A stretch of 64,000 nt of DNA from Halomarina salina (GTDB taxonomy: Archaea > Halobacteriota > Halobacteria > Halobacteriales > Haloarculaceae), in the NCBI RefSeq assembly GCF_023074835.1, contig NZ_JALLGW010000001.1, positions 620,001 through 684,000 on the forward strand. Reading direction: 5' to 3'. The notes beneath the pieces were generated by a model, which was given only the letters and a program-made list of their open reading frames with translations, ran no database searches and was not told the DNA's origin. Position numbers and translations under genes: made by a program. Of this stretch, positions 25,369 through 29,086 are shown in pieces; positions within the stretch are counted from its first letter, which is position 1; each line of letters begins with the position of its first letter.

Positions 25369-27159
25369 CTACTCCAGCGCCGCGAGGTCGAACTCGAACG
25401 CCGCCACCGGCAGTTCCAGGTCGTGTTCGACCAGCACGCGCGGGTGTATCTCGCCGACGACGCCACACCGCTCGCCGTCGAGTTCCACGGCCGCGGTGCG
25501 GCCCTCGATGAACGACGGGTGGGTCGTCGCCGGCGTCTCCAGGTTCGCACCGAACGCGCCTGCGAGCGCCTGCAGTCGCGCCTTCGCGTCCTCGTAGCCC
25601 GCGTCGGTGCGCGCGAGGACTGCGGCCACGCTTCGGCGTTCCGCGGCCTTCGTCTCCTCGCTCTCGTCGACGTGCGCCACGAGGCCGATTTCCGCGAGGT
25701 CCTGTGGATACGCCCGGTGGGTGTTGTTCTCCAGGACCGTCAGCAGCGACGGGAGCGCCCACGTCCGGACGACGGTGTAGTCCTCGCTGTACGGTTCCGC
25801 GATGGTCACCGGCGGCCGCTGCCCCAGCGGTGCGTCGGGGTCCAGTTCGTCGGGAGCGGCGAGACCCATCCGGTCGAGGCAGTCGCGCTCGCTCGTCATG
25901 TGGAAGTCGAGCATGTCCTCGAAGCCCAGACCGACGAGCGCGTCCCGCGCTGCGCCCTCCAGCCGGGAGCGTTCGTGCCGGCCGCCGACCGTCGACACCT
26001 CGGGGTAGCGCGGGTCGAGTTCGTTGAACCCGTGGGCGCGGCCCACGTCGTCCACGACGTCGACCGGGTTGAGCACGTCCACTCGGTACGGCGGGACGCC
26101 GACGCGGTAGGCGTGGTCCCCCTCGCCGTCCGCGGTGGCGGGAGCGCCGTCCGAATCGACCGTCTCGGCGTCCAGTCCCGCGCGTTCGAGGTAGTCGACG
26201 ACCTGCTCCTCGCTCAGGTCGACGCCGAGCAGTTGCTCGATGCGCGCGTGCGTGACGGTCTTGTGGTCGACCGAGAGGTCGGGACGGAGTAGCTCGCGCT
26301 GTTCGGCCGGGTGGCCCTCGGGGTACTCGACGCGGACCTCCTCGACCCGGCCACCGCGCGCGTCCAGCGCGTAGCAGATGATGGCGCACATCTTGTCGAT
26401 GGTCCACTGGTCGGTGCCGGTCAACTCGACGAGCAGGTCCCGCGAGTTCTCGCTGACCTCCGTCCGACGGCCGTTGATGACCGGCGGGAACGAGAACAGG
26501 CCGATGTCGTCGTAGATGGCCGGGAGTCGCTCGTACTCCGAGACGATGTCGGCGTACTTCTCGCCGGTCGGGTGCTCGGTCAGCACCTCGCCGGGCGTGA
26601 GTTCCGCATCCGAGTCGAGCGCGACGAACGTGTCCTCGTCGGGCGCGACACCGCGGTAGCTGATGGATTTGACGCCCTCACCGCCCGGTTCCTCCGCCGC
26701 GCTCCCCGCCGCACCGCCTTTCAGCATGGTCAGGTCGTGCACCCCGATGGCGCCCTTGACGCGCTGGCGACCCATCGTCGCGTGGAGCTTCTCCTGTAGC
26801 TGGATGAGCGAGTCGAGTTTCGCCTCGCTCATGTCGAGGCCGCGGACGATAGCGCCCGTCACGTACGGGCGCTCGTCGGGGACGGACTCGTCGACCTCGA
26901 ACACCCAGTCGGCGTCGTTCGTCTTGGGGACGTAGACGCCCCTGTCGGTGCCGTCCTGGTAGCGCAGCGACCGCGCCACGCCCTCGACGGAGAGGCGGTC
27001 GAGACGGTCCGGCGCGAACTCCAGCTGGAACTCGCCCTCCTCGGTCTCGCCCTCGAACTCCAGACCCAGGTCGAACAGGTCGCGTTTCAGTTCCTCGTCG
27101 TCCCGGTCGGTGCTGGCGAGTTTGCGCAGTTCGTCGGGGTCGACGTCGACGACGGGCAT
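25369..27159 (-). CDS. pheT: phenylalanyl-tRNA synthetase beta subunit
   Basis: A 596-residue archaeal-type beta subunit; with PheS it forms the (alpha-beta)2 enzyme that charges tRNA-Phe. It begins directly with the short archaeal B1 region (MPVVDVDPDELRKLAS) and lacks the bacterial EMAP-like and anticodon-binding extensions. The B3/B4 editing region (YSxxPP-like FSFPPVINGR near 224-233) and the B5 domain (RVGVPPYRVDVLNPVDVVDD near 366) are visible, followed by the catalytic-like module (TIAEPYSEDYTVVRTWALPS). Its ATG overlaps the pheS TGA by one base (TGATG). The pair follows the Phe-rich leader. Confidence 0.93.
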   Translation of the reverse strand: MPVVDVDPDELRKLASTDRDDEELKRDLFDLGLEFEGETEEGEFQLEFAPDRLDRLSVEGVARSLRYQDGTDRGVYVPKTNDADWVFEVDESVPDERPYVTGAIVRGLDMSEAKLDSLIQLQEKLHATMGRQRVKGAIGVHDLTMLKGGAAGSAAEEPGGEGVKSISYRGVAPDEDTFVALDSDAELTPGEVLTEHPTGEKYADIVSEYERLPAIYDDIGLFSFPPVINGRRTEVSENSRDLLVELTGTDQWTIDKMCAIICYALDARGGRVEEVRVEYPEGHPAEQRELLRPDLSVDHKTVTHARIEQLLGVDLSEEQVVDYLERAGLDAETVDSDGAPATADGEGDHAYRVGVPPYRVDVLNPVDVVDDVGRAHGFNELDPRYPEVSTVGGRHERSRLEGAARDALVGLGFEDMLDFHMTSERDCLDRMGLAAPDELDPDAPLGQRPPVTIAEPYSEDYTVVRTWALPSLLTVLENNTHRAYPQDLAEIGLVAHVDESEETKAAERRSVAAVLARTDAGYEDAKARLQALAGAFGANLETPATTHPSFIEGRTAAVELDGERCGVVGEIHPRVLVEHDLELPVAAFEFDLAALE

Positions 27160-28691
27160 CAGTAGATCACCTCCGCGTTCCGCAGGAAGTCGAGGTCCGC
27201 GAGCGTCCCGTGGAGGTCGCGGATGTCCTCCGCGCCCGTGACGAGCATGGCGAGGCGTTCGAGCGCCAGCCCCCACGCCATCACCTCGCAGTCGACGCCC
27301 AGCGGTTCCAGCACTTCGGGACGGAAGATGCCCGAGTTGCCTATCTCGATGAGTTCGTCGGTGACAGGGTGGCGGCCGAACAGCTCGAAGCTCGGTTCGG
27401 TGTACGGGTTGTAGTGGGGCTTGAACTCGATGCCCGTGATGCCGAACTGCTCGTAGAACTCCGTGAACGTCCCCATCAGGTCCCGGACCGAGAGGTCCTC
27501 GGCCATCACCCACCCTTCTATCTGGAAGAACTCCAGCAGGTGGGTCGCGTCGAGCGTGTCGTTGCGGTACACCTTCTCGACGGAGAACCACCGCTGGGGC
27601 GGCTCCAGGTCGCCCTCGGCGTGTCCCGAGAGGTAGCGCATCGACAGCGACGTGGTGTGCCCGCGCAGGTCCAGTCCCCGCGCCACGTCCTCGGTCCACG
27701 GCGAGTGGTAGCCGTCGCCGTCCTCGCCGACGCCCTCGCGGTGGGCGCGCGCGACGCGGTCGACGAGGTCGCTCGGCATGTCGGCCTCGTCCATCTCGGC
27801 GGGGTCCGAGAGGACGAACTGGTCCCAGTGGGTGCGCGCCGGGTGGTCCTGGGGCATGAACAGGCAGTCGTTGATCCAGAACTCCGCGTCGACGTGCGGG
27901 CCGTCCATCTCCTGGAACCCCATGCCGACGAGCACCTCCTTCACCCGGTCCGCGGTCTGCCGGAGCACGTGTTTCCGCGCGGGCGTGACGGCCTCGGCGT
28001 CGGCCTCGACGTTGTACTCGGTGAACTCCACGTCCGCCCACTCGCCGCTCGTGAGCAGTTCCGGCGTGACCTGTGCGACCGTCTCCGCGACCCTCACGCC
28101 CTCCATCATCGCGGTGACGCCCGCGTCGGTGAGCAGCAGGGAGCGTGCGGTGCGCTCCTCGCGGACGACGAGACTGCGTCGTTCGAGCGCGTCGAGCGTC
28201 TCGTCGTCGACGGACTCGGTGACGTTCGCCCCGCCCGCTCCCTCGGCGATAGCGTCCAGCGCGGTCGCCTCCGCGTCCGCGTCTGGGTCGGCGGTCGCGT
28301 CGGCCGACACCGCGCCGCCGTCGATGGTTCCGTAGCCCTTCCGCGCGAAGTTCGACAGGGCAATCTGGACCTCGGGGCCGTCCAGCCCCGCCGCGTCGAC
28401 GAGTTGGCCCATCTCGACGCTCTCCTCGTCCACGCCCGCCTCGACGGCGGCGCGGTAGAAGCGGACCTCGGGGAGGGCGTCCTCGCGGTACGTCTCGCCT
28501 TCCTCGGTGAGCGAGACGGTCTCCTCGGCCTGCTCGGTGACGGTGAGCAGGCCCTCCTCCTGTAGTTCGAAGGCCGCGCGCGTGACGACGGTGGGCGACT
28601 CGTCCACGTCGTCCGCGACGGCCTCGACGGTTCGTTCGTCGGTGGCGGACGCGGCCTCCAGGACCGCGACCTGCGCTGCGGGCAGTTGCAT
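27159..28691 (-). CDS. pheS: phenylalanyl-tRNA synthetase alpha subunit
   Basis: A 510-residue catalytic subunit of class II PheRS. The N-terminal ~200 residues are winged-helix tRNA-binding domains (AQVAVLEAASATDERTVEAV; FELQEEGLL), with an acidic linker near 145. Catalytic motifs follow: motif 1 region (GFQEMDGPHVDAEFWINDCL), motif 2 (RWFSVEKVYRNDTLDATHLL then FFQIEGW) and motif 3 (GNSGIFRPEVL; VMAWGLALERLAML). It is the first long gene of the leader-pheS-pheT transcript, 145 bases after the leader peptide stop. Confidence 0.93.
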   Translation of the reverse strand: MQLPAAQVAVLEAASATDERTVEAVADDVDESPTVVTRAAFELQEEGLLTVTEQAEETVSLTEEGETYREDALPEVRFYRAAVEAGVDEESVEMGQLVDAAGLDGPEVQIALSNFARKGYGTIDGGAVSADATADPDADAEATALDAIAEGAGGANVTESVDDETLDALERRSLVVREERTARSLLLTDAGVTAMMEGVRVAETVAQVTPELLTSGEWADVEFTEYNVEADAEAVTPARKHVLRQTADRVKEVLVGMGFQEMDGPHVDAEFWINDCLFMPQDHPARTHWDQFVLSDPAEMDEADMPSDLVDRVARAHREGVGEDGDGYHSPWTEDVARGLDLRGHTTSLSMRYLSGHAEGDLEPPQRWFSVEKVYRNDTLDATHLLEFFQIEGWVMAEDLSVRDLMGTFTEFYEQFGITGIEFKPHYNPYTEPSFELFGRHPVTDELIEIGNSGIFRPEVLEPLGVDCEVMAWGLALERLAMLVTGAEDIRDLHGTLADLDFLRNAEVIY

Positions 28692-28836
28692 TGGTTCGTA
28701 CACTCGGGTACGTCGGTTAGGTGTTTTCGAGTCGACTCGTGGTGTGGGTGTAACCCAGACTGGCGAGAGTGACTCGCGCGATGCGACCCCTGCGGGCGAT
28801 TTCGTCCCCCGACCGCGGAGAGAGTCCGCCGCTCGC
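28692..28836 (-). promoter_or_regulatory. structured spacer between Phe leader peptide and pheS
   Basis: Four short perfect hairpins or palindromes follow one another in the transcript: GCGGA-CTCTC-TCCGC (28815-28829), GCGAG-TCACT-CTCGC (28763-28777), TGGGT-TAC-ACCCA (28745-28757) and CGAGTCGACTCG (28728-28739). No U-rich terminator is evident. The spacer could respond to ribosome stalling on the leader peptide, or simply be an untranslated region. Confidence 0.4.
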
Positions 28837-28917
28837 TCAGGCCGCGAAGAAGAAGCCGAACCTCGCGACGCGTGGCTGGTCGGCGACGACACCGGCACGG
28901 CGAGGTTCGCTTGCCAT
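28837..28917 (-). CDS. Phe-rich leader peptide of pheST
   Basis: A 26-codon gene on the same strand as pheST: starts MASEPRRAGVV and ends RVARFGFFFAA before TGA. Four of the last seven residues are Phe, with codons TTC-GGC-TTC-TTC-TTC. A TATA-like CTTTTCC lies 24-30 bases before its ATG, so transcription probably starts at this ATG (leaderless) and the peptide is the first thing translated on the pheST mRNA. Phe-rich leader peptides control pheST by attenuation in enteric bacteria; an analogous sensor in an archaeon is an inference. The high-scoring context is the combination of strand, promoter and Phe run. Confidence 0.6.
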   Translation of the reverse strand: MASEPRRAGVVADQPRVARFGFFFAA

Positions 28918-28940
28918 ACTGGTGAGAGTCGGTGCCGACA

Positions 28941-28947
28941 GGAAAAG
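28941..28947 (-). promoter_or_regulatory. TATA-like box of the pheST leader transcript
   Basis: Minus-strand CTTTTCC, 24-30 bases upstream of the leader-peptide ATG. No comparable box lies directly before pheS itself. Confidence 0.45.
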
Positions 28948-29086
28948 CGTTCCGGGGGTGTGAGAGCAACTGGACCAGCAACGCCGGTGGGACTGAACGG
29001 GGCCGCCGTCTCGACGACGGAGCAGACGGGTGAGCACCGCAGCGAGCGCCAGCGAGCGAGGAGCGCGCCCGCCGCACCGAGTCGAG

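Follow-up and report, generated by a model that had tools for sequence, protein, structure and literature searches.

That bacteria can exert amino-acid control by translating a leader peptide is textbook knowledge. In E. coli, pheST is preceded by pheM, a Phe-rich leader peptide gene that lies just upstream and is presumed to sense charged tRNA-Phe. T-boxes and other amino-acid riboswitch leaders likewise place RNA structure before an aminoacyl-tRNA synthetase gene. Attenuation of pheST in gamma-proteobacteria has been mentioned (PMC1262725). In Streptomyces, an attenuator with classic terminators lies before trpS2, the second TrpRS gene, and in Mycobacterium, leaders with runs of Cys precede cys operons and lack terminator hairpins, and Rho has been proposed to act there (PMC1262725).

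Here we describe pheL from the archaeon Halomarina salina. Like pheM, it is a Phe-rich leader gene just upstream of pheST. Unlike pheM, it is archaeal and its mRNA is probably leaderless, and it has neither competing helices nor a hairpin-plus-U terminator in the spacer; we do not claim any sequence relation between the two. It differs from a T-box in having an in-frame Phe ORF. The actinobacterial trpS and cys leaders are functionally close to haloarchaeal trpL and cysL (see below), but they are bacterial, have Rho as a proposed factor instead of aCPSF1/FttA, and, for trpS, have classic terminators.

The original prediction came with the remark that no equivalent was known for an archaeal aminoacyl-tRNA synthetase operon. 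In full-text searches of the open-licence literature, we found no description of leader-peptide attenuation in archaea, and novelty is our best estimate. However, the ORF had already been tabulated in one species in 2016, with its Phe content and function unrecognized. In that dRNA-seq study of Haloferax volcanii, 16 uORFs were listed in 5'-UTRs of 150-250 nt (Babski 2016, PMC4983044 Table 2). uORF 13 (26 amino acids) lies before pheS, uORF 12 (23 amino acids) lies before a gene for tryptophan--tRNA ligase, and no extra transcription start site (TSS) was reported at either main gene (PMC4983044 Table 2). The two main genes are HVO_2948 and HVO_A0127. These are almost certainly pheL and trpL. 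None of our collected loci could be matched with certainty to the mass and length of the leader in H. volcanii (2772 Da, 26 amino acids). The table lists these uORFs as small proteins encoded in 5'-UTRs and does not remark on their Phe or Trp content, RNA structure, conservation, or regulation; nor does the paper's text mention attenuation (the string "attenuat" is absent).

The pheL locus, its conservation, and its promoter

The window (the 64,000-nucleotide stretch of the H. salina genome that we analyzed) contains these features, from 5' to 3' on the minus strand:

28943..28954, minus strand: promoter box CGGAACGCTTTT (BRE/TATA) of the leader, at fixed positions -37..-26
28837..28917, minus strand: pheL, the Phe-rich leader ORF, encoding MASEPRRAGVVADQPRVARFGFFFAA and then a stop; conserved (found at 144 of the 179 distinct pheS loci)
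28846..28854, minus strand: Phe run TTC TTC TTC (codons 22-24), the presumed sensor, U-rich and directly 3' of helix P1
28692..28836, minus strand: 145-nt spacer from the leader's stop to pheS, without T-runs of at least 4 in any of 144 species
27159..28691, minus strand: pheS, phenylalanine--tRNA ligase alpha subunit (by homology and family-wide conservation), putatively the first regulated gene

pheL runs from the ATG at 28917 to the end of the TGA at 28837 and has 26 codons. The peptide (MASEPRRAGVVADQPRVARFGFFFAA) ends in RFGFFFAA, and all four of its Phe codons are TTC. The frame is open further 5' (as a 108-amino-acid ORF), but we prefer the start at 28917 because both conservation and the promoter support it. 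pheS begins with the ATG at 28691 and is followed by pheT, whose frame ends at 25369. The layout is as first proposed: a 26-codon Phe-rich ORF before pheS, with CTTTTCC 24-30 nt before its ATG (at 28947-28941) and pheS 145 nt after its stop. By PheS, the nearest named relatives are Halomarina oriensis (~90% identity) and H. rubra.

To define a leader, we required an ATG start, 15-45 codons, and at least 2 clustered Phe near the end. We collected the upstream regions of pheS from Halobacteria, which left 179 distinct loci once duplicates were removed, and 144 of these have a Phe-rich leader ORF. Applied to the reverse strand, the identical rule gave 3, and in shuffled sequences it gave 1.8, so a chance origin is excluded. 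A stricter version that demanded FF and a correctly placed A/T box gave 125 loci versus 0 for the reverse strand and 0.1 for shuffled sequences. The 144 leaders usually have 24-28 codons and end 88-297 nt 5' of pheS; typical peptides are MASEPHCRSVVRQGVPRAGFDFFFAA, MAPESHETGVGDQLRRPRSGFGFFFAR, and MPSEPRTGGSARQPRHDSTGFGFFFAA. Most of them contain FF (128/144), and 81/144 contain FFF. There are 512 Phe codons in the frame of the ORF, as compared to 109 and 126 in the other two frames. pheL is a short upstream ORF that is rich in codons for the operon's own amino acid, with Phe in frame and controls near zero. The original prediction had staked itself on conservation of the Phe codons among relatives, and these are conserved in place and in frame in most Halobacteria.

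The leader is not essential, as 35 of the 179 loci lack a scored one. Some of these are decayed copies (in one Halomicrobium, the promoter and the Phe stretch are kept and the start is lost), and others are frameshifted metagenome contigs. Still others of the 35, such as a Natronomonas clade and Halarchaeum, show no trace of a leader upstream of pheS.

Across 143 loci, a CNNAACGYTTTT box lies at -37 to -26 from the leader's ATG with no drift in distance, and the key promoter bases (C, A, A, and T4) are conserved at 86-95%. Given this fixed distance, the pheST mRNA would begin with pheL as a leaderless ORF, with transcription most likely starting at or beside the ATG of pheL. Most transcripts in H. 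volcanii are of this kind (72% of protein-coding transcripts are leaderless; PMC4983044). That pheL is the first ORF of the pheST mRNA had been predicted, and besides the fixed promoter, this agrees with the presence of a TSS upstream of the H. volcanii uORF and the absence of one at pheS (PMC4983044); translation of pheL is predicted.

The same promoter pattern is common in H. salina. ACGYTTTT followed by ATG 21-27 nt on occurs 55 times in the genome, versus 5 times for the reversed pattern. We read 50 of these sites: most of the ATGs begin real genes, nearly all of them at 24 or 25 nt, and pheL is among them at a distance of 25. ACGYTTTT-N24/25-ATG behaves as a leaderless promoter class genome-wide.

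Another conserved element, GAACCGNTAAC-like, lies ~25-42 nt before the ATG of pheS (within 28692-28736 of the window, minus strand) and is also present in other species, including species without the leader. It is possibly a weak second promoter for pheS. In H. volcanii, no TSS was reported at its position or at pheS (PMC4983044).

Conserved RNA structure and the U-rich Phe block

The leader RNA contains two conserved helices:

28900..28909, minus strand: P1 5' arm, CGAACCTCGC, leader nt 9-18 (codons 3-6), with compensatory changes across species
28857..28866, minus strand: P1 3' arm, GCGAGGTTCG, leader nt 52-61, just 5' of the Phe run
28794..28834, minus strand: P2 hairpin after the stop, with an outer helix (28829-28834 / 28794-28799), then an internal loop and an inner helix

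P1 overlaps the ORF, Phe codons included, and the core of P2 follows the stop by a median of 6 nt. P1 has 10 perfect pairs in the window (CGAACCTCGC/GCGAGGTTCG), and in other species both arms change together, as in CCGAACCCC/GGGGTTCGG, CTCGAACGCG/CGCGTTCGAG, GTCGGACGC/GCGTCCGAC, and CCGGACCCG/CGGGTCCGG. At its 5' end, the ORF is conserved at the nucleotide level over 18 nt because this segment pairs with the codons that immediately precede the Phe run. In P2, 10 of 11 pairs change on both sides. Its internal loop is symmetric and purine (YGGAN / NGAAA at 28824-28828 / 28800-28804, minus strand), and the GAAA, which is invariant in 42 sequences, is part of a loop that could bind a protein.

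We measured covariation in P1 and P2 with an alignment of 42 sequences. Over both helices, 86.4% of cells are paired and 18/21 pairs changed on both sides; 0 of 500 shuffles matched this on any of five measures, and when partners were offset by one column, the score fell from 0.42 to at most 0.17. When arms were swapped between species for all segment pairs, P1 (z = 9.8) and P2 (z = 6.9) stood out and every other segment pair had |z| < 3. In this test, no helix competed with P1 or P2, and no leader segment showed conserved pairing to the start region of pheS. The GAACCGNTAAC-like element was also considered as a partner for the 3' arm of P1, and this was rejected, as the element does not track the changes in P1. 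Folding the window's sequence by itself is unremarkable (z = -0.47) and is uninformative in this GC-rich RNA. The four perfect spacer hairpins that had been pointed out are not a useful description: the spacer has one conserved hairpin (P2), and P1 is within the ORF. The loop of P1 (leader nt 22-46; 28872-28896 of the window, minus strand) has near-invariant bases (G26 and C30, as numbered in the first sequence of the alignment) that are explained neither by P1 nor by the peptide.

A covariance model of the leader element, run on 145 genomes of the class Halobacteria, finds it in most of them. Of 101 strong matches that we checked by coordinates, 100 lie on the strand of pheS and immediately before it, 39-171 nt away; the position of pheS was not at hand for the other one. 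Weak secondary matches elsewhere in these genomes (E about 1e-4 to 0.1) look like GC-rich chance. Outside of Halobacteria, the model found nothing in 197 genomes from the phylum except for one match with E = 0.078. A search of the region against Rfam 15 gave no match above the gathering score (the best was at chance level and far below it), and no T-box match up to E = 10. Some P2 hairpins contain a GGUGGACC-like stretch that we take to resemble a T-box sequence. We rejected this reading: the U is C in many loci, including the window, so the pairing to the CCA of tRNA is broken.

The Phe block itself has unusual codon usage. TTT makes up 30% of the Phe codons in the FF runs of leaders (101/337) and 5% in the pheS genes of the same loci (77/1510). 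T-runs of at least 4 are present in 56 of 63 leaders without FFF versus 30 of 81 with FFF, and a Val inside the Phe block is encoded by GTT in 10 of 11 cases (these counts, those of TTT included, ignore relatedness). Leaders with FFF often read TTCTTCTTC, as does the window. By these codon counts, the Phe block holds more U than encoding Phe requires, an excess that suggests a signal for termination or for a nuclease. Not every leader has a U-tract: in 58 of 144, no T-run reaches 4. In the spacers, T-runs of at least 4 are absent (0/144), and a pattern scan of the window region found no hairpin-plus-U-run terminator between the stop of pheL and pheS.

T5C was found to stop 95% of transcripts in living H. 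volcanii cells (PMC7237163), and the codon pair TTT TTC spells T5C. In archaea, the nuclease for transcription termination is aCPSF1/FttA. The KH domains of aCPSF1 bind U-tracts, with cleavage downstream (PMC8716108), and in the structure paper on FttA, U-rich RNA occupies positions -30 to -36 relative to the end of the RNA (PMC11616081).

Leaders for tryptophan and cysteine

We also compared the leader regions of other synthetase genes, as had been suggested, and found a Trp leader; a Cys leader precedes a cysE-like gene:

G000:C1:849375-850780 (leader L232:1103-1177), plus strand, outside the window: Trp leader MHAVCWRWHALSPADSPVVAPAAA before trpS2, the second TrpRS gene
G000:C1 about 2269207-2269367 (L303/L351), minus strand, outside the window: Cys leader MRDSISRSRSLAHRSFVRPCCRC (...RPCCRC) before a cysE-like gene

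The ATG of the Trp leader in H. salina (MHAVCWRWHALSPADSPVVAPAAA) is 25 nt from a ACGCTTTT box, which is the same promoter spacing as for pheL. Trp leaders are present in all 30 of the best trpS2 loci and in one Halocatena, or 31 loci across Halobacteria, and a typical peptide is M.SALEWRWRWQ.PSRADSVVAAGDAA. In the RNA, one helix brackets the Trp codons and a second hairpin spans the stop; the swap test was not decisive for trpL, as the sequences are too alike. There are no U-runs inside the ORF of the Trp leader, and only 9 of 31 loci have one within 90 nt after the stop. The Cys leader precedes a gene that is similar to serine O-acetyltransferase (named from its own sequence rather than by a family search). 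Similar Cys-rich ORFs occur in ~5 of 30 cysE loci, in few genera that all belong to the same family. At tyrS, trpS1, leuS, ileS, and valS, no leaders were seen by a crude test in which gene starts were guessed. Given the Trp and Cys leaders, general amino-acid sensing is much likelier than a peculiarity of Phe.

A model for pheL and its alternatives

pheL is very probably the Phe-sensing leader of pheST and a member of a wider haloarchaeal class. Reading the ORF as a Phe leader, as originally predicted, is supported by its conservation, the fixed promoter, the covarying RNA, and the Trp and Cys leaders. The ORF, its promoter, the helices, and their position are demonstrated by sequence comparison, from which we infer translation, stalling, and an output. 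It seems highly likely that the leader regulates pheST through translation of its Phe codons, and a Phe-sensing leader peptide gene that controls pheST is likely to be the best explanation of the whole.

We propose that if charged tRNA-Phe is scarce, then the ribosome would stall on the Phe cluster, which would hold P1 open and keep the U-rich block covered. If Phe is ample, then the ribosome would finish, P1 would refold, the U-rich block would be exposed, and fewer transcripts would reach pheST. The output that we favor is transcription: the Phe block would double as a U-tract for aCPSF1/FttA and would be masked by the stalled ribosome. By geometry, a ribosome whose A site holds the first Phe codon of the run would cover the 3' arm of P1 and leave P2 intact (the core is ~24 nt ahead), while a ribosome at the stop would reach into P2 (a median of 6 nt ahead). 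The published geometry of FttA limits when masking could act. Masking is the simplest model that uses all of the conserved parts, and we put it forward tentatively.

The same Phe sensor might instead have another output, with the stalled ribosome together with P1 and P2 setting either the stability of the mRNA (by shielding its 5' region from 5'->3' nucleases) or the translation of pheS. We consider this possible, although we would not bet on it. P1 begins just 8 nt from the predicted 5' end, P2 is so close to the stop that the position of the ribosome must alter it, and the spacer lacks any terminator-like U-run. On the other hand, leader segments do not show conserved pairing to the start region of pheS, and the excess U-richness of the Phe block suggests a termination or nuclease signal. 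A classic attenuator, in which the position of the ribosome selects between exclusive terminator and antiterminator helices in the spacer, would fit the pheM-pheST-like layout, and (by eye) the Trp leader has a repeated downstream GCUC-type segment that could compete. But in pheL, covariation is confined to P1 and P2; without a helix that competes with either of them, there is no classic two-fold RNA switch, and the between-species segment swaps led us to reject a two-state attenuator for pheL. Together with the lack of U-runs in the 144 spacers, this makes a classic attenuator very unlikely, and the mechanism of E. coli pheST, with which pheL was first compared, is unsupported; attenuation applies here only in the wide sense.

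It is also quite improbable that the RNA is a folded binding site for a protein (PheRS itself, for example) and that the ORF is incidental. The conservation of P1, P2, and the loop with the invariant GAAA would suit such a site, but the Phe run is outside of both helices and yet its frame and its Phe codons are kept, TTC and TTT alike. Furthermore, the promoter would yield a leaderless ATG, and the same layout is repeated with Trp before TrpRS. Finally, pheL could encode a small protein with a function of its own that just happens to be on the same mRNA. The peptide does have a recurrent pattern (MxSEP...GFGFFFA), and the H. volcanii study counted the uORF among possible genes for small proteins (PMC4983044). 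However, the conserved residues correspond to the arms of P1 and shift along with P1 (in Halorubrum, Haloglomus, and Halocatena), the middle of the peptide is variable, and the element is found before pheS only, so we consider a functional small protein extremely unlikely.

Returning to the Phe-sensing leader, there may be a separate haloarchaeal class of amino-acid attenuators located on leaderless mRNAs and responding to Phe (pheST), Trp (the second TrpRS), and Cys (cysE), with Phe codons serving as the U-tract for aCPSF1/FttA and a starved ribosome blocking termination. We regard this broader proposal as doubtful. The Trp leader has no U-run in its ORF, so masking could not simply be carried over to it.

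Our reading of pheL explains a table item that has gone without comment since 2016, and it provides a recipe for finding more leaders: a leaderless promoter followed by a short ORF with a codon cluster. Whether transcription and translation are linked in archaea has been named as an open question (PMC11616081). A class-wide case on leaderless mRNAs would show a functional link between the two, and pheL would offer a natural and tractable switch in Haloferax volcanii for testing that link.
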